From Bacteroidota bacterium (lineage in GTDB: Bacteria > Bacteroidota > Bacteroidia > Bacteroidales > NBLH01), in NCBI GenBank assembly GCA_025361565.1, contig JANYKN010000116.1, positions 348,470 to 412,469 of the forward strand: a stretch of DNA of 64,000 nucleotides, written 5' to 3'. This document shows positions 21,241-31,210 of the stretch, in pieces. A program made the translations under genes and the position numbers. Each line of letters begins with the position of its first letter. Position 1 is the stretch's first letter. The notes beneath the pieces are model-generated. The model was given only the letters and a program-made list of their open reading frames with translations. It was not told the origin of the DNA and did no database searches.

Positions 21241-22467
21241 TTATTCATTTAATGATGCTTTCCAGTTTTCGTCTATCAAGCCCAGATTAAAAGCTAGTTT
21301 AATGGTATTTTCAGCCCTCTTGACAACCGGTGCATCAATCATTTTTGTTCCGATTGAAACTACTCCAAGGCCTTTCAGCTTAGCTTGATCAAATGCAAGT
21401 ATAATTTTTTTCGCTTTTTCGATCTCAGCGTTTTCGGGTGCAAAGTTTTGATGTATTACTGCAATTTGCAATGGATGAATACAACCCATCCCTTCAAATC
21501 CGAGCGATTTTGAGTTTTTAACATTTTGGGCAAGTCCCTCCATATCAGCAATATCGGAAAATACGGAATCTATTGGCTGAATTTTAGCAGCTTTACAAGC
21601 ATTCACAATTCTGGTTCGTGCATAAAATGACTCATGTCCTTCTTTTGTCCTCGAAACACCCATATCAGCAGTATAATCCTCCAATCCTATTGCCAGGGCA
21701 ACTACATTTTCAGATGCTTTGGCAATTTCAAATGCATTTTCTACGCCCAATGCACTTTCAATAATTGGCATATAATAAATAGGATAATTTACGCTGGCTG
21801 CTTTCTTTAACTTTTCAATTTCTTTATCAACTTCCTTGATTTGTTCTGCAACTTCGCACTTTGGCAATAAAATGAGGTTTACATGATGCGCCACAATAAA
21901 TTTCAAATCTTCCAAACCTTTAGGAAATTGATTGATCCTAACCATTCGCTCTGCACCATAGAAATTGATTGCTCGTAAAGAATTACGAACTAAATAAGAT
22001 GCTTCAGCCTTTTTATCAGGTGCCACAGCATCTTCCAAATCAAGAATAATTCCATTGGGTTTATGAATTCCTGCATTGATTATCATGCTTGGTGTATTAC
22101 CAGGCAAGTACAAACGAGAAAACCTGAATTGTTCTTTTTTCGAAATCGAAGTGTTCTCTTCCAGCATTTCAGGCAGGAACTCCTTTTCAGTATCAATCAA
22201 TTGTTTTATTGCATATTCTAATCTAGCCATTATCACATGTGGAAGTGCCCCGGTGTCCTGAATTTTTAGTTTAGCATTCTTAATATCGAAAAACTTTAAT
22301 CCATCTATGCAAAGTTGCTTGATCGAATTACCATAAAGACTATTCACCTTACTCAGAACTTCTATTTGAAATCCACTCTCCTGCATTAACTCAAGGGTAA
22401 TAAAACAATCGGATCTGACTTTTTCACCAATATTGCCTGCAGTTACGGGCGTATTATATTTTTCCAT
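21241..22467 (-). CDS. citE: Citrate lyase acyl-carrier (CitD) - beta subunit (CitE) fusion
   Basis: A fusion of two lyase subunits normally made separately. Residues about 1-95 match CitD: TAGNIGEKVRSDCFITLEL, then VNSLYGNSIKQLCIDGLKFF and DTGALPHVIMARLEYAI; S19 of RSDCF is the likely attachment site for the phosphoribosyl-dephospho-CoA group. Residues about 112-408 are CitE, which cleaves citryl-ACP: RLYLPGNTPSMIINAGIHKP, ILDLEDAVAPDKKAEA, YMPIIESALGVENA and GFEGMGCIHPLQI. ATG 22467 is preferred; an ATG at 22491 would add 8 residues but sits too close to a possible promoter box. citF follows after 50 bases. Confidence 0.92.
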   Translation of the reverse strand: MEKYNTPVTAGNIGEKVRSDCFITLELMQESGFQIEVLSKVNSLYGNSIKQLCIDGLKFFDIKNAKLKIQDTGALPHVIMARLEYAIKQLIDTEKEFLPEMLEENTSISKKEQFRFSRLYLPGNTPSMIINAGIHKPNGIILDLEDAVAPDKKAEASYLVRNSLRAINFYGAERMVRINQFPKGLEDLKFIVAHHVNLILLPKCEVAEQIKEVDKEIEKLKKAASVNYPIYYMPIIESALGVENAFEIAKASENVVALAIGLEDYTADMGVSRTKEGHESFYARTRIVNACKAAKIQPIDSVFSDIADMEGLAQNVKNSKSLGFEGMGCIHPLQIAVIHQNFAPENAEIEKAKKIILAFDQAKLKGLGVVSIGTKMIDAPVVKRAENTIKLAFNLGLIDENWKASLNE

Positions 22468-22500
22468 TTCACAAACAATTTTAACAAACATTTAATAAAA

Positions 22501-24335: not shown

Positions 24336-24442
24336 TCTTGAATTTACACTATAAACCCTTGCATTTTTCGATTCGTTAATTTTCGTTCATCAACAAATTT
24401 TGTCTGTTAAACAAATATTGACAATCATACACATATTGAGAT

Positions 24443-24472
24443 TTGCAAGGCATAGTAAAAGTACTAAATTAG
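24443..24472 (+). promoter_or_regulatory. Probable promoter of the ACP - amidotransferase cluster
   Basis: TTG (24443-24445), 19 bases, TAAATTAG (24465-24472): one mismatch from TAnnTTTG with ideal spacing, 72 bases before the ACP start codon. Confidence 0.5.
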
Positions 24473-24544
24473 CATCCTTTAATATTTTATTATTAACAGA
24501 AATTGAAATTTCGATCAATTACAAACATAAATAATTTGCAAATA

Positions 24545-24784
24545 ATGGAAGATAAAATTAAAGATTATGTAAAGCGTACTGCAGCAGTTTCAGCTAATTT
24601 CAGCATCAATAACGACACTTTGCTTTTTGAAGAAGGGCTTTTTGACTCAATGGGATTTATGTCTCTGATCAACTTTTTACAAGAAGAACTAAAAATTCAA
24701 CCCAATGATGATGAATTGGTTGTTGAAAATTTTGAATCAATAAATGCTATAGTTGCTTATGTAAATAAAAAACAAGCAGCCTAA
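24545..24784 (+). CDS. Acyl carrier protein
   Basis: A 79-residue carrier protein. LLFEEGLFDSMGFMSLINFL contains the pantetheine-attachment motif with S35 (DSM instead of the common DSL). It starts at ATG 24545; an upstream start would add 14 residues unlike the family. It is the first gene of a close run with the amidotransferase (16 bases), NadE-like gene and AMP-forming ligase. Being away from fatty-acid genes and beside a ligase suggests a dedicated carrier for one acyl or aminoacyl group, not the housekeeping ACP. Substrate unknown. Confidence 0.88.
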   Translation: MEDKIKDYVKRTAAVSANFSINNDTLLFEEGLFDSMGFMSLINFLQEELKIQPNDDELVVENFESINAIVAYVNKKQAA

Positions 24785-24800
24785 AATAAACTAAATACTT

Positions 24801-26771
24801 ATGTGTGGAATTGCCGGAGGAACTAAATTTTATTCACCAAAATCGATTAATGAAGAGATTTTGGTAAACATGCTTGGCAGAATACGGCATAGAGGTCCAG
24901 ATGAAAGTGGTATCTATTCCTCTGATGATCTGGCAATTGGAAATGTTCGTTTAAGCATTATTGACATAGCTTCTGGCCAACAACCATTATCAAACGGTGA
25001 TGGGAATATTTGGATCGTTTATAATGGTGAAGTTTTTAATTACATTGAATTACGTGAAGATCTTGTTAAAAAAGGTTATCAGTTTAAAACACATAGCGAT
25101 ACAGAAGTTATTGTTCTGCTTTATGAGGAATATGGAATTGATTTTATAAATAAATTGAACGGCCAATTTGCCATTTCGCTGTGGGACAAAAGAAAGAAAG
25201 AATTGATCCTTGTAAGAGACAGAGTAGGCATTAGACCTGTTTTTTATACAGTTAAAAACAAAGAACTTTATTTTGCTTCAGAAATCAAAGCCATTCTTGA
25301 ACATCCGGATATTGATGCAAAAATATCTTCTCAGGCTCTTTCGCAAATTTACACGTTCTGGACAACAATTAGCCCAGGCACTGCTTTTGAGGATATTTAT
25401 GAATTGCCTCCAGGTCATTACATGATCTTTAAAAAAGGAAGCATGATCATTGAGCCTTATTGGCAACTCAGTTTTCCGAGTCAAAACGATTATGCTAAAA
25501 TAAGTTTGAATGATGCGCTTGAACAATTTACAGAGATACTTACAGATGCAACAAAAATTCGTTTACGCGCGGATGTTCCGGTTGCAGCCTATTTGAGCGG
25601 AGGTCTTGATTCCACTGTAACAACATCAATTATTAGAGACGTGGTTCCTGATATGTTACAGACATTTTCAGTTGGATTTGCAGATAAAGATTTCGATGAA
25701 TCTGAATATCAAAATATTGCATCTAAATTCTTTGGAACTAAACACACTGGTTTTAAAATTCAATCTTCCGAAATTGCCGAGATCTTTCCTGATGTAATTT
25801 GGCACAGTGAAATCCCAATTTTAAGGACATCTCCTGCTCCGATGTTTAGTCTATCGAAACGTGTAAGACAAAGTAATATAAAGGTCGTAATTACAGGCGA
25901 AGGCGCAGATGAAATGCTTGCCGGTTATAATATTTTCAAGGAAGCTAAAATCAGGCAATTTTGGGCCAAGCAGCCATCATCAAAATTCCGCCCGCTTTTG
26001 TTAAAAAAACTGTATCCTTATATTCCATCTATTAGTGAAGCAAATAGCAATTCACTCAAATTCTTTTTTGGATATAAACTGGCTGAAACATCATCACCCA
26101 TTTATTCACATATGCTCCGGTGGAATAATGGAAATCAGATAAAGAAATTTTTTTCTAAATCGATTACCGATAAATTAAATGGTTATAATCCAATAGATGA
26201 ATTACTTACAAAAATTGGCAATAAACTTGATAATTTCGATTATCTGGCAAAAGCACAATGGCTTGAAATAAATCTGTTTATGTCTGGATATCTTTTATCT
26301 TCACAAGGAGACAGGATGGCGATGGCCAATTCAGTTGAGGGACGTTATCCATTTTTAGACTACCGATTAATTGAATTTTGTTCAAAACTAAACCCTGATT
26401 TAAAACTTAATGGCCTGAATGAAAAATATTTGCTAAAAAAAATAGCTACCAATAGAATTCCAAAAGAAATTCTCAACAGACCCAAACAGGCTTACAGGGC
26501 TCCTATACAAAGTAGCTTTATTTCTAAAAATCCACCACAATATGTTAAGCAAATGCTTGACCGAAATAAAATTGAGGAACAACAAATATTTGATATTTCA
26601 AAAGTATCAGATTTTGCAAACAAGCTGAACTCAGGAATAATAAGTTCTGAAACAGATGACATGGCTTTAACTGCCATTCTATCTACAGGATTATTAATAG
26701 ATCAATTTCAGAACAGGCAAGGATTTCAAAAGCAGGAAAGACTTGCAAACTGCAGAATAATTAAAGATTAA
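24801..26771 (+). CDS. asnB: Asparagine-synthase-like glutamine amidotransferase
   Basis: A 656-residue AsnB-type enzyme. The mature N-terminus MCGIAGG has the class II glutaminase nucleophile C2; RHRGPDESG and YNGEVFNYIELR are glutaminase signatures. The synthetase domain carries the PP-loop LSGGLDSTVTT and ITGEGADEMLAGY, with SVEGRYPFLDYRLIEF near the end. The family adenylates a carboxylate and transfers ammonia. Such genes in cell-surface clusters often amidate a sugar acid or an acyl chain instead of making asparagine. The position between an ACP and a NadE-like gene supports a specialised role; plain asparagine synthase cannot be excluded. Confidence 0.88.
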   Translation: MCGIAGGTKFYSPKSINEEILVNMLGRIRHRGPDESGIYSSDDLAIGNVRLSIIDIASGQQPLSNGDGNIWIVYNGEVFNYIELREDLVKKGYQFKTHSDTEVIVLLYEEYGIDFINKLNGQFAISLWDKRKKELILVRDRVGIRPVFYTVKNKELYFASEIKAILEHPDIDAKISSQALSQIYTFWTTISPGTAFEDIYELPPGHYMIFKKGSMIIEPYWQLSFPSQNDYAKISLNDALEQFTEILTDATKIRLRADVPVAAYLSGGLDSTVTTSIIRDVVPDMLQTFSVGFADKDFDESEYQNIASKFFGTKHTGFKIQSSEIAEIFPDVIWHSEIPILRTSPAPMFSLSKRVRQSNIKVVITGEGADEMLAGYNIFKEAKIRQFWAKQPSSKFRPLLLKKLYPYIPSISEANSNSLKFFFGYKLAETSSPIYSHMLRWNNGNQIKKFFSKSITDKLNGYNPIDELLTKIGNKLDNFDYLAKAQWLEINLFMSGYLLSSQGDRMAMANSVEGRYPFLDYRLIEFCSKLNPDLKLNGLNEKYLLKKIATNRIPKEILNRPKQAYRAPIQSSFISKNPPQYVKQMLDRNKIEEQQIFDISKVSDFANKLNSGIISSETDDMALTAILSTGLLIDQFQNRQGFQKQERLANCRIIKD

Positions 26772-26806
26772 TATTTAAATTTAAAACAATTAAACCCAAA
26801 TACACC

Positions 26807-27790
26807 ATGGAAAAAAAAGCATTTTCAAAAAGCATCATAAAATTAGAAGATATACAGAAAACCTGTGACACAATTATTCAAAAACTCAGACATGACGTAC
26901 ATACAGTTTTAAATAGAAAAGGAGGAATTGTTGGAATTAGTGGAGGTATTGATTCTTCAGTAAGCCTTGCTTTAACTGTAAAAGCTTTTGGCGCAGAGAA
27001 TGTAATAGGCATTATGTTACCTGAAAAAGATTCTAGTCCTGACAGTAAGGCATTTGCTCAAAAACTGGCAGATAAATTTGGCGTTAAAACGATAGTTGAA
27101 GATATAACAGGTGCACTAGAAGGGTTTAAGTGCTATCAGAGACGTGATGAAGCCATGACTAGGGTTTTTCCTGAATATAATCCAGTTGATTATAAATCAA
27201 AAATCAGCATAAAACAAAATGTATTGATGCAAAATATTCCATCGGTATTTTCATTAACAATTATTGATAAAAAAGGTGAAGTAAAAAGCAAAGTTCTGCC
27301 AATTAAAGAGTATCTTCAAATTGTAGCTGCTTCAAATTTCAAGCAGAGATGCAGGATGTCAATGTTGTATTATCATGCTGAGGCTAATCATTATGCTGTT
27401 ATTGGTACTCCAAACAAGCATGAAGTTGAGCAAGGATTTTTTGTGAAATATGGTGATGGTGGTGCTGATGTTATGCCAATTGGTGATTTATACAAAAACC
27501 AGGTATATCAAATTGCTGAATATTTAGGAGTTCCAAAGGAAATTATTAACCGCACTCCTACAACAGATACTTATACTATGGAACAGACACAGGAAGAATT
27601 TTTCTATCAACTTCCTTATGAGCTAATGGACTTACTTTGGTTTGGATGGGAAAATGGTTATGAACCTGCAGAAGTTGCAAAAGCGCTTGATCTGACTTCC
27701 GAGCAAGTAGCCCATGTAAACAAAACTTTTGAAAGAAAGAAAAAAACGACCGAATACTTGAGAATGGCTCCGATGAGGGAATACAGATAG
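26807..27790 (+). CDS. nadE: NadE-like ammonia-dependent synthetase
   Basis: A 327-residue N-type ATP-pyrophosphatase resembling NAD synthetase. The PP-loop is GISGGIDSSVSLA; NFKQRCRMSMLYYHAEANHYAVIGT and KYGDGGADVMPIGDLYKNQVY match NadE closely. It lacks a glutaminase domain. It is about 50 residues longer than short NadE, mainly through an insert (about 105-165, around FPEYNPVDYKSK and SLTIIDKKGEVKSKV). Together with the neighbouring amidotransferase this points to a paralogue activating another carboxylate, though a true NadE cannot be excluded without knowing the rest of the genome. It starts 35 bases after the amidotransferase gene. Confidence 0.85.
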   Translation: MEKKAFSKSIIKLEDIQKTCDTIIQKLRHDVHTVLNRKGGIVGISGGIDSSVSLALTVKAFGAENVIGIMLPEKDSSPDSKAFAQKLADKFGVKTIVEDITGALEGFKCYQRRDEAMTRVFPEYNPVDYKSKISIKQNVLMQNIPSVFSLTIIDKKGEVKSKVLPIKEYLQIVAASNFKQRCRMSMLYYHAEANHYAVIGTPNKHEVEQGFFVKYGDGGADVMPIGDLYKNQVYQIAEYLGVPKEIINRTPTTDTYTMEQTQEEFFYQLPYELMDLLWFGWENGYEPAEVAKALDLTSEQVAHVNKTFERKKKTTEYLRMAPMREYR

Positions 27791-27862
27791 GAAAGCTAAA
27801 TTGATTCTGGGTTGATGTTAAAGTTGAAATTACCATGAATTTTATTTTATGTATTCAAAATT

Positions 27863-27904
27863 CCGAAGCATAGTTTCTGAGATACACAGCTATGCTACGG
27901 TTTT
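27863..27904 (+). terminator. Hairpin between the NadE-like gene and the ligase gene
   Basis: CCGAAGCATAG (27863-27873) and CTATGCTACGG (27890-27900) pair with one mismatch over a 16-base loop and are followed by TTTT. It may end or attenuate transcription before the ligase. No good promoter was seen after it, so partial read-through is likely. Confidence 0.5.
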
Positions 27905-27998
27905 AAATTCAAGCTATTACAGTAGATATTTTCAGGGATTTAAAATATCCTTTCAAACTGCTTAATCGAAGCTATAAACCAATCCTAATTTTATAAAT

Positions 27999-29477
27999 AT
28001 GAATGCAATTGATTATTTCTTTGAATATTCGAAAAATTCAGATAAAATCTTTCTGCTAAATAAAAGGGAGCAAATTAGCCATGGTGATTTATATTCCAAA
28101 GCATGCAAAATAGCTTTATATTTAAACAATAATGTTGGTTCAAAACAAAACATCCTTCTATATAGCACCAATAATCAATTCTTCATATTAGCCTATCTGG
28201 GAATTATAAAATCCGGGAATATTTGTGTACCAATTAATCCAGCAGCATCAAAGTCCACACTTGATTTTATTATCAATGAAACAGAGCCTAAAATTGCATT
28301 TATCCAAAACAGGTTTGTTGACAACCTAAATTCTACTTTTATCGAACTAATAACAGAAGAATTACTTGGAAAAAATATATTGGATTTTTCTTCCAATTCA
28401 AATGAAGCTGAAATATATAAATTAGAAGATAATAATCAAATTGCAGAAATCATCTATACTTCTGGTTCGACAGCTCTTCCAAAAGGTGTTATGATTAGTC
28501 ATAAAAATCTGATTGCAAATACAAGCTCAATTGTTGAATATTTAAAATTAACAAGCAACGATATTATGCTTGTTGTATTGCCATTTTATTATTGCTATGG
28601 ATTATCCTTATTGCATACTCACATTAGAGTAGGAGGCTCTATCGTTTTAAACAATACGTTTATGTTGCTTGGAAGTGTTATAAATGACATTATTAATTAT
28701 AAATGTACAGGGTTTGCAGGTGTACCAAGTCATTTTCAAATTTTATTGCGCAAAACCAAATCTTTCAAAGAAAACACTTTTGAACATTTAAGATATGTTA
28801 CACAGGCAGGAGGGAAACTTCATAGTGTATTTATCGAAGAATTTATAGAAAGTTTCCCCAATATTATGTTTTATGTTATGTATGGTCAAACGGAAGCCAC
28901 TGCAAGGTTGTCTTATTTGCCCTTTGAGAATTTAAGGAAAAAGATGGGTTCCATTGGTATTGGTATTCCAGGTGTGGAATTAAAACTTATTGACACTGAA
29001 GGCAAAGAAGTTGTTACCGATGAAATTGGCGAAATTGTAGCAAAAGGTGATAATATTATGAGTGGTTATTATAAAGCTGAAGAGCTTACTAATAAAACAT
29101 TGATATCAGGATATTTACATACTGGTGATTTAGCAAAAAAAGATCAAGATGGATATTTCTATATAGTTGCCCGTAAAAAAGAAATTATAAAAGTAGGTGG
29201 TGAAAGAATTAGTCCTAAAGAAATTGAAGAGGTAATTGTGCGCATTCCTGAAGTAGTGGATTGCACAATTGAAGGTGTCTATGACGATGTTTTAGGCGAA
29301 AAAATAAAAGCAACAATTGTAATTAATGAAAATACAGATACAAAAACATTAAAGGAAAAAATTATTATTGAGTGCAAAAGTAAACTTAGCTCTATCAAAG
29401 TACCTCAAATAATCGAGTTCGACAATCAAGTAAAGGTAAATTCTTCAGGAAAAAAGGTTAAAAATACCAATGAATAA
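27999..29477 (+). CDS. AMP-forming acyl-CoA/acyl-ACP ligase family protein
   Basis: A 492-residue ANL-superfamily adenylating enzyme. The phosphate-binding loop is IIYTSGSTALPKGVMISH; YGQTEATARLSYLP, the hinge motif GYLHTGDLAKKDQDGYFYIV and KKEIIKVGGERISPKEIEEVI are complete, and the C-terminal catalytic Lys is probably in NSSGKKVKN. It would adenylate a carboxylic acid and pass it to CoA or to the ACP coded four genes upstream. Similar ligase, ACP and amidotransferase sets occur in polysaccharide loci of Gram-negative bacteria. The acid itself cannot be told from sequence. The sugar transferase gene follows after 167 bases. Confidence 0.88.
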   Translation: MNAIDYFFEYSKNSDKIFLLNKREQISHGDLYSKACKIALYLNNNVGSKQNILLYSTNNQFFILAYLGIIKSGNICVPINPAASKSTLDFIINETEPKIAFIQNRFVDNLNSTFIELITEELLGKNILDFSSNSNEAEIYKLEDNNQIAEIIYTSGSTALPKGVMISHKNLIANTSSIVEYLKLTSNDIMLVVLPFYYCYGLSLLHTHIRVGGSIVLNNTFMLLGSVINDIINYKCTGFAGVPSHFQILLRKTKSFKENTFEHLRYVTQAGGKLHSVFIEEFIESFPNIMFYVMYGQTEATARLSYLPFENLRKKMGSIGIGIPGVELKLIDTEGKEVVTDEIGEIVAKGDNIMSGYYKAEELTNKTLISGYLHTGDLAKKDQDGYFYIVARKKEIIKVGGERISPKEIEEVIVRIPEVVDCTIEGVYDDVLGEKIKATIVINENTDTKTLKEKIIIECKSKLSSIKVPQIIEFDNQVKVNSSGKKVKNTNE

Positions 29478-29644
29478 TTCTTTTAAAAAATTCAAAATTA
29501 TTGTATTAAAAATTTGCAATTTCATAAATGATAAACATACATTAATCAAACATTTTTTGATTTTTTTTAATGATTCCTTTACTTGCATAATATTAAAAAG
29601 ATTAAATATTTAATAGCACATTCCAAACCAAAAGATGCAGAACA

Positions 29645-31210
29645 ATGCAATTGGATAAATTATTTTACAAATACAACAAGTACTTTATTATTCTATTTGA
29701 TCTTTTATTAGTAAGTTCATCATTTCTAATTTTAGCTTGGGCAAAACCAGCAACAATAAGGCTTGTATTGCCACAATACCTTACTCCATTTTTTATTTAC
29801 CTTATTATTTGGCTTGCGATTTCTTTTATAATGGGCAAATATGATCTTGCCAATTTCAAAAAACCAATTCATCTTTTGGTAACCATAACCATCATAACTT
29901 TTATCATACTATCAATAGTTTCGATTCTACTTTTTGCATTGAAACTAAATGCTTATTCTCGTGCTATTGTTTTTGGAACAATAATTCTCTGTTATATTCT
30001 CGAAATAATTTCTTACCGCATTATTTATAGTTGGGTTCGGATTAACAGCATAAAATTCGAAAATAAATACTTCGAAGAACAAATAGTTATTGAAAGAGAA
30101 CATATTCCATTGATAAATCTAGACTCGGAAGATTACAAAAGCCAGGATTCAACAAAAAAAAGAGAAGAATCTACACGAAAAAAGCTGATAACCAGAGAAA
30201 CCGGCCCAAGTGTTTTTGAATATTTTTCCGAACATCTTAATGTCGATTCTGAATCAATAGTGCTAACTGCTACTACAACTCCTTTTAATATCGAAAATTT
30301 GAATGGTCAAGAATTACCAGCTATCATCAATTTAAAAAAAGTGAATGATATGAGGTATATAAACAAATTCTTTGAAGCAGTCAACAGTAAGCTTCGTGAT
30401 GCAGGTATGTATATAGGATGTGTAGAAACAAGCAGACAGCGGTATGTTAGAATTGGAAATAAATATCCCGCATTTATCAGACAACTTGTTATTCTTTTTG
30501 ATTTTGGTATTAACCGAATAATACCTCGGCTTTCGGGATTTAAAAATATATATTTTAACATAACAGCTGGCGTAAAACGTACTATTTCTAAAGCTGAAGT
30601 GCTTGGAAGACTTGTAAGTTGTGGATTTGAGATTATCGAATACAAAGAGATTAACAATCTTACATATTTTGTGGTAATGAAAACAGGCGAACCAGCCTAC
30701 AATCCTAATCCGTCATATGGGCCATTGTTTAAAATGCCTAGAATTGGGAAAGAAGGAAAAATCATTAATGTTTACAAGTTTAGGACGATGCATCCTTATT
30801 CTGAATATCTTCAGGATTATGTATTGCGACTAAATGGTTATTCAATAGTAGGGAAACCTGCAGATGATTTCAGATTGACCAAATGGGGCAAGTTTATGCG
30901 AAAATATTGGCTTGATGAATTACCTCAATTAATAAATGTCCTAAGGGGAGAAATGAAATTAGTAGGTATTAGACCTTTAAGCCGCCGCGCTTTCGAAGAT
31001 TATCCGGATGATGTAAAAGAAATGCGTATCAAATATAAACCAGGATGTATTCCTCCCTATGTAGCCTTACTTAAACAAGGCATGGCTCAATCCATAGAAG
31101 CAGAGCGCACTTATCTAAAAGAAAAAGAAAAAAATCCATTTGTGACAGATCTTAAATATTTTAAGATGGCAGTTTTCAATATTATCACCAATAAAATAAG
31201 AAGTGCCTAG
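29645..31210 (+). CDS. Atypical membrane sugar transferase (WcaJ/PglC-like catalytic core)
   Basis: A 521-residue protein. Residues about 10-140 form four membrane helices. Residues about 185-365 are an extra globular domain (SKLRDAGMYIGCVETS, then LGRLVSCGFEIIEYKEINNLTYFVVMKTG), reminiscent of a methyltransferase fold without its SAM motif. The C-terminus is the polyprenyl-phosphate hexose-1-phosphate transferase core: VYKFRTMHPYSEY, DDFRLTKWGKFMRKYWLDELPQLINVLRGEM with the Asp-Glu pair, and KLVGIRPLSR. The usual start of this core, with a re-entrant membrane helix (KRxxD...), is missing. It probably begins a lipid-linked glycan, although loss of the helix leaves activity uncertain. Confidence 0.82.
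   Translation: MQLDKLFYKYNKYFIILFDLLLVSSSFLILAWAKPATIRLVLPQYLTPFFIYLIIWLAISFIMGKYDLANFKKPIHLLVTITIITFIILSIVSILLFALKLNAYSRAIVFGTIILCYILEIISYRIIYSWVRINSIKFENKYFEEQIVIEREHIPLINLDSEDYKSQDSTKKREESTRKKLITRETGPSVFEYFSEHLNVDSESIVLTATTTPFNIENLNGQELPAIINLKKVNDMRYINKFFEAVNSKLRDAGMYIGCVETSRQRYVRIGNKYPAFIRQLVILFDFGINRIIPRLSGFKNIYFNITAGVKRTISKAEVLGRLVSCGFEIIEYKEINNLTYFVVMKTGEPAYNPNPSYGPLFKMPRIGKEGKIINVYKFRTMHPYSEYLQDYVLRLNGYSIVGKPADDFRLTKWGKFMRKYWLDELPQLINVLRGEMKLVGIRPLSRRAFEDYPDDVKEMRIKYKPGCIPPYVALLKQGMAQSIEAERTYLKEKEKNPFVTDLKYFKMAVFNIITNKIRSA

Follow-up and report, generated by a model that had tools for sequence, protein, structure and literature searches.

A four-gene cassette joining an acyl carrier protein to a NadE-like protein recurs across phyla and may supply an amide-bearing acyl group to surface glycans

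In Vibrio cholerae O1, rfbK and rfbL encode an acyl carrier protein (ACP) and a ligase for the tetronate on perosamine, so that N-acylation of the sugar relies on a small acid activated by a ligase and a dedicated carrier; to our knowledge, no amidotransferases take part. The exopolysaccharide genes associated with exosortase A (XrtA/PEP-CTERM) bring together an AMP-forming ligase (TIGR03098), an ACP and an AsnB-like amidotransferase (TIGR03108), and in the exopolysaccharide cluster of Rubrivivax gelatinosus transposon insertions in the AsnB-like (wbpS) genes affect biofilm (PMC3684757). The AsnB-like WbpS enzymes of Pseudomonas aeruginosa O6, the Helicobacter pullorum N-glycan and the Porphyromonas gingivalis type IX secretion system (T9SS) linking sugar likewise form amides in surface-glycan synthesis; the available parts of two reports attribute uronamides in surface glycans to WbpS on the basis of P. 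gingivalis and H. pullorum mutants and mention no NadE-like partner (PMC7468200, PMC6025236). Here, we analyzed a 64,000-nucleotide stretch from a Bacteroidota bacterium (assembly GCA_025361565.1, contig JANYKN010000116.1, positions 348,470 to 412,469; hereafter the window) that carries genes for an ACP, an AsnB-like amidotransferase, a NadE-like protein, an AMP-forming acyl ligase and a sugar-transferase-like protein. All five plus-strand open reading frames (ORFs) reported in a first-pass annotation, with the families named there, are present (24503-31210). We found that the first four genes are a real conserved module and that the fifth lies outside its core. The module belongs with the carrier-protein, ligase and amidotransferase sets of polysaccharide loci, and its NadE-like partner is a new, apparently undescribed element; by contrast with the XrtA/PEP-CTERM genes, the cassette carries this gene and misses all family cut-offs in every test. 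In keeping with the first-pass view of the locus as a candidate undescribed system, no published description of the four-gene set was found in the open-access literature, which leaves most subscription journals outside its coverage.

To place the cassette, we compared 38 loci from genome contigs, sampled genomes and plasmids, with phyla beyond Bacteroidota covered by one scan of genome contigs and the plasmid collection. The ACP, AsnB, NadE and ligase genes all lay within 6.5 kb in 29 of the 38, a co-occurrence far beyond chance; many of these loci come from related genomes and hence are not independent. Adjacent copies were present in Bacteroidota, Pseudomonadota (alphaproteobacteria) and Myxococcota (myxobacteria), and neighboring genes often share 3 bp or lie <40 bp apart. 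At least seven gene orders were found. Most Bacteroidota have ACP-AsnB-NadE-Lig (Lig, ligase), rhizobia AsnB-ACP-Lig-NadE, myxobacteria and Mesorhizobium sp. AR07 NadE-AsnB-Lig-ACP, and Azospirillum ACP-Lig-AsnB-NadE; NadE-AsnB-ACP-Lig, AsnB-NadE-ACP-Lig and ACP-AsnB-Lig-NadE also occur. Adjacency was thus kept despite shuffled order in three phyla, which is strong evidence for a joint function. In the window, the four genes are adjacent and both AsnB and NadE fall in the cassette clades described below. The neighborhood comparison found the ACP-AsnB-NadE-Lig order kept in relatives, contrary to the prospect, entertained in the first-pass annotation, that no relative would conserve it.

The NadE-like protein scores 434 bits against NF002048 (NAD(+) synthase NadE/PRK00876; cut-off 313) and is thus a family member. 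It retains the ATP-pyrophosphatase and carboxylate-site motifs (SGGIDSS, GTxNKxE and FFVKYGDGGAD) together with KQRxR, and its predicted structure (pLDDT 92) has the NadE fold, with 2e18 as best match (TM 0.84 on target). The fold, the catalytic motifs of an ammonia-using N-type ATP-pyrophosphatase and NF002048 membership are therefore shared with NAD(+) synthase. What differs is that the cassette protein has its own clade, an insert (~60 residues) in which the motif GCY..RRDEA is conserved, a C-terminus reading YLRM/YLH in place of FKR or HK, and an ACP gene nearly always adjacent. In NadE structures, the C-terminal FKR/HK motif contacts deamido-NAD. Because this motif is altered, the NadE-like protein likely acts on a different substrate, as far as its sequence indicates. 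Similarly, the insert and altered C-terminus suggest that the "NAD(+) synthase" label is probably wrong despite the kept catalytic motifs.

Consistent with a specialized role, the same genome encodes a separate housekeeping NadE (contig C167, 274 aa), and such a protein was present in all 7 sampled genomes of the genus. This housekeeping protein (L002; G000:C167:41922-42716) is itself of a divergent short type, with the motif FWTLHGDVGDYG and a very long branch from other NadE. The genome also has eight strong PF00733 matches, two of which are pieces of one gene, giving six AsnB loci besides that of the cassette; the initial concern that these might be the only AsnB and NadE in the genome therefore falls away. 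When the copies were placed in trees, 28 cassette NadE-like rows split from 19 other NadE by a 100/99 branch, and 33 cassette AsnB rows grouped together (99/98), with the remaining AsnBs of this genome falling outside; both trees have long internal branches that make exact placements uncertain, and the cassette split was present in all bootstrap trees. The comparison with other copies proposed at the outset thus identifies the cassette proteins as specialized paralogues, not housekeeping enzymes.

The AsnB-like protein of the window reaches the cut-off of neither TIGR03108 nor TIGR03104. TIGR03108, the XrtA/WbpS family, is its second-best NCBIfam match at 425 bits, with relatives at 428-456 and a cut-off of 816.9, and in this it differs from WbpS. 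Its best solved relative is PDB 7ylz, which we take to be an AsnB-like hydroxyamidotransferase of the TsnB9 type; the two are alike in being AsnB-like enzymes for an acid other than aspartate, and we know of no glycan link or NadE partner for the 7ylz type. In two loci (L038:13496-15367 and L039:206-2077), another AsnB-like gene of a different kind lies some kilobases away from the cassette and follows unknown genes and a methylmalonyl-CoA-epimerase-like gene; the latter was matched in L038, and L039 has an ORF of similar size. The ACP was matched by profile in 34 ORFs of the related loci, with its serine conserved. The ligase adjoins ACP or NadE in most loci; its nearest solved relatives are malonyl-, oxalyl- and coumaroyl-CoA ligases, and it scores 296 bits against TIGR03098 (cut-off 592), the closest relative tested reaching 467. 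An exosortase link was considered and found unsupported: no protein in this genome passed the PF09721 cut-off (best match 22 bits versus 25.7), a search of that family only, which does not cover divergent sortases outside it.

Across loci, the most constant element is the ACP-NadE pair. In a Fibrobacter locus (L032, Fibrobacterota), only ACP and NadE stand side by side, and in a Thermoplasmatota archaeon (L031) ACP adjoins two tandem NadE-like genes with no AsnB beside it. The same archaeal locus (L031:9689-12796) encodes a PrmC-like methyltransferase above the bacterial PrmC cut-off, and Wzx and glycosyltransferase genes adjoin. Another natural variant, in genome G406 (L048, 6431-9412), has ACP, NadE-like and ligase genes, and a search of that genome for a cassette-type AsnB found none. 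Locus L036 was rejected as a further AsnB-less case on finding a cassette-type AsnB elsewhere in its genome, and an apparent NadE-AsnB fusion in L042 was rejected on finding NadE in another frame. Within the genus, cassette NadE was present in 5 of 7 sampled genomes, and a fragment of a cassette-type AsnB gene lies at the edge of a contig in the seemingly cassette-less G397. More widely, 6 of 41 sampled relatives have cassette NadE and 13 of 394 sampled Bacteroidota genomes pass the NF002048 cut-off. The NadE-like gene was found on 117 PLSDB plasmids; no phage carriage was found in INPHARED. Sinorhizobium meliloti and S. medicae carry a bare four-gene operon on a symbiotic megaplasmid (pSymB in S. 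meliloti) near minCDE. In S. meliloti strain Ak57 (L053:7449-8990), the ligase is apparently split over two frames and unannotated, and other S. meliloti records differ.

We then examined the genomic context. About half of the cassette loci, in several phyla, have polysaccharide genes nearby (a raw count over the cassette loci). The neighbors include Wza, Wzc and Wzx (L025); GT2, Wzx and GT1 (L031); glycosyltransferases (GTs) and a hexapeptide acyltransferase (L020); UDP-GlcNAc 2-epimerase (L036, L048); a dTDP-sugar epimerase, C-methyltransferase, nucleotidyltransferase and NusG (L023); and DegT aminotransferase and RmlD (L043), with dTDP-sugar and aminotransferase genes characterizing L023 and L043 together. 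These findings bear out the initial association with glycan loci. The cluster had also been described as unusually small; its lack of glycosyltransferases and a flippase is explained by the portable nature of the cassette, which some genomes carry embedded in a complete polysaccharide locus and others by itself. Accessory proteins recur as well. Rhizobial loci, L034 and L035 encode a GNAT-like protein of ~365 aa, and seven loci from four phyla have a HemK/PrmC-like methyltransferase, marked by NPPY, near the cassette. PrmC-type enzymes methylate side-chain amides, so these neighbors suggest, and fit, an amide product. A predicted exported protein of ~280 aa with an LHHSTG motif (L020:3852-4667, L031:3731-4573 and four more loci) is possibly an SGNH-type hydrolase; it had no Pfam match, and neither it nor the GNAT-like protein matched a curated family.

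The fifth gene behaves differently. Of 31 loci, 8 have it next to the cassette, which makes it a loose neighbor and not part of the core, so the idea that all five genes make up one self-contained minimal glycan pathway is not sustained. In the order, this sugar-transferase-like protein is common even without the cassette: 20 of 70 sampled genomes encode it, against 6 of 41 sampled relatives for cassette NadE. In G406 its gene and the cassette are on separate contigs, and in genomes without an adjacent cassette its neighbors are mostly unrelated genes. As for the features of a monotopic phosphoglycosyl transferase, the catalytic Asp-Glu core is kept, with WLDELPQ and VGxRP conserved in 8 homologues, and the re-entrant membrane helix, present in the canonical transferase of the same genome (L100), is absent. 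The Pfam match starts at profile position 35, leaving 1-34 unmatched, whereas those of the genome's other four transferases start at position 1 or 2. N-terminal hydrophobic helices, lacking in several aligned homologues, are followed by a methyltransferase-like middle part (a weak class I methyltransferase fold match in a poor model, pLDDT 62) and then the Bac_transf core.

How might the four proteins work together? We give even weight to the proposal that they form a portable cassette, in which an acyl group bearing an amide would be built on a dedicated carrier and handed to a surface glycan or glycolipid. The AMP-forming ligase would adenylate a small carboxylic acid and load it onto the phosphopantetheine arm of ACP. 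The AsnB-like enzyme would take ammonia from glutamine to amidate one carboxyl group, and the NadE-like enzyme would adenylate a second carboxyl, on the carrier-bound acid or a sugar acceptor, and amidate it with ammonia; an amidine instead of an amide is less likely as the NadE-like product. The two NadE-like genes of the archaeal locus, which has no AsnB beside ACP, look like a requirement for two amide-forming steps. Transfer of the group onto an (amino) sugar could then fall to a transferase specific to each locus, which in relatives is of GNAT-like or hexapeptide type, and in some species a PrmC-like enzyme may N-methylate the amide. The link to a lipid-linked glycan would, in this genome, be made by the sugar-transferase-like protein encoded next to the cassette. 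The uronamides made by WbpS in surface glycans and the biofilm effect of the Rubrivivax insertions lend the proposal support from other systems. Our data establish gene content, conservation, the cassette clades, intact catalytic motifs and the frequent polysaccharide neighborhood; we infer the substrate, the order of steps, the carboxyl used by each synthetase, the acceptor and the glycan product. The wider view, in which a NAD synthetase paralogue makes an amide on an acyl group decorating surface glycans as part of an undescribed cross-phylum carrier-protein pathway, is one we advance tentatively, with somewhat less than even confidence.

Several observations weigh against this scheme. For several loci (S. 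meliloti, Nitratireductor and Rhizobium), the surrounding ~10 kb lacks any obvious glycan gene, which leaves room for a lipid or a free metabolite as the product, and the frequency of polysaccharide neighbors was counted in cassette loci only. No acyltransferase or methyltransferase stands beside the window's own copy, the AsnB step must be dispensable in G406 since it lacks a cassette-type AsnB, and no substrate readout was obtained from the cassette sequences. The cassette could make a diffusible or membrane small molecule, such as an amide-bearing lipid, an osmolyte or a siderophore-like compound, with polysaccharide regions merely collecting mobile accessory genes. The bare operons beside minCDE in Sinorhizobium and the other alphaproteobacteria without glycan genes favor this explanation, as do the weak best matches of the ACP: among them are carrier proteins from pathways to small molecules and lipids, for example AmcB and the OlsHI-associated ACP, although it scores far under the cut-off of each. 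We nonetheless consider it rather unlikely, given the clear polysaccharide context in roughly half of the loci from several phyla and the absence, among the loci compared, of any recurrent exporter or release enzyme beside the cassette.

Alternatively, AsnB could be a WbpS-type uronamide synthase acting on a nucleotide sugar, with ligase, ACP and NadE-like protein separately acylating the same sugar and no carrier-bound amide formed. The rank of TIGR03108 among its matches is consistent with such a role, and one report places the uronamide, in the P. gingivalis T9SS linking sugar, on an amino-acid-bearing sugar (PMC7468200). This arrangement is improbable in our judgment: cassette AsnBs of every phylum tested miss the cut-off of 817, and it does not account for ACP being constantly paired with NadE and not with AsnB. 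The least likely rival, which we regard as very remote, is that a genuine NAD synthetase landed in an unrelated operon. Its above-cut-off NF002048 label, NadE fold and conserved KYGDGGAD are what such an enzyme would display; set against them are the separate NadE of this genome and of all 7 sampled genus genomes, the deep separate clade, the insert, the replaced FKR/HK motif and the constant ACP partnership across phyla.

Features of the window are collected in the table below. The ACP ORF is listed with a TTG start, and the ATG at 24545 is likelier. Promoter-like sites occurred at chance frequency (38 found versus 39 expected), so the single likely promoter suggested earlier for the five genes was not demonstrated. 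The intergenic gaps are 16 bp (ACP-AsnB), 35 bp (AsnB-NadE), 208 bp (NadE-ligase) and 167 bp (ligase-transferase), the last two being large enough for further promoters. The closest relatives (L018, L019, L046, L047) have 2-73 bp between NadE and ligase, a spacing that favors a single operon comprising the first four genes. Elsewhere in the window, on the minus strand (21241-22491), one protein combines a citrate lyase/malonate decarboxylase-type carrier domain with a citrate-lyase beta-like domain C-terminal to it (PF06857 + PF03328).

Table 1. Cassette genes and adjoining features, in window coordinates.
Feature	Position	Strand	Basis
Acyl carrier protein (ACP)	24503..24784	+	PF00550, 1.5e-6; phosphopantetheine serine in motif FDSMG
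AsnB-like glutamine-dependent amidotransferase	24801..26771	+	PF13537 + PF00733; Cys2 (MCGIAG), intact ATP-pyrophosphatase domain
NadE-like ATP-pyrophosphatase/amide synthetase	26807..27790	+	NF002048 (PRK00876) subfamily, 434 bits
AMP-forming acyl ligase, proposed ACP loader	27999..29477	+	PF00501 + PF13193
Sugar-1-phosphate transferase-like protein (Bac_transf), loosely associated	29645..31210	+	PF02397 from profile position 35
Possible promoter/leader region	24400..24544	+	Sequence read; no significant signal

Annotation pipelines label the NadE-like protein "NAD(+) synthase", including in Sinorhizobium meliloti, and the AsnB-like protein "asparagine synthase", and the cassette is therefore easily mistaken for central metabolism. 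Its occurrence in tractable model symbionts that are non-pathogenic (S. meliloti, S. medicae, Mesorhizobium and Azospirillum) opens it to a direct test. If the proposal is correct, the NadE family would gain a reaction and glycans a new type of substituent; the cassette would explain many "second NadE" genes and point to an amide-bearing glycan decoration common to several phyla.

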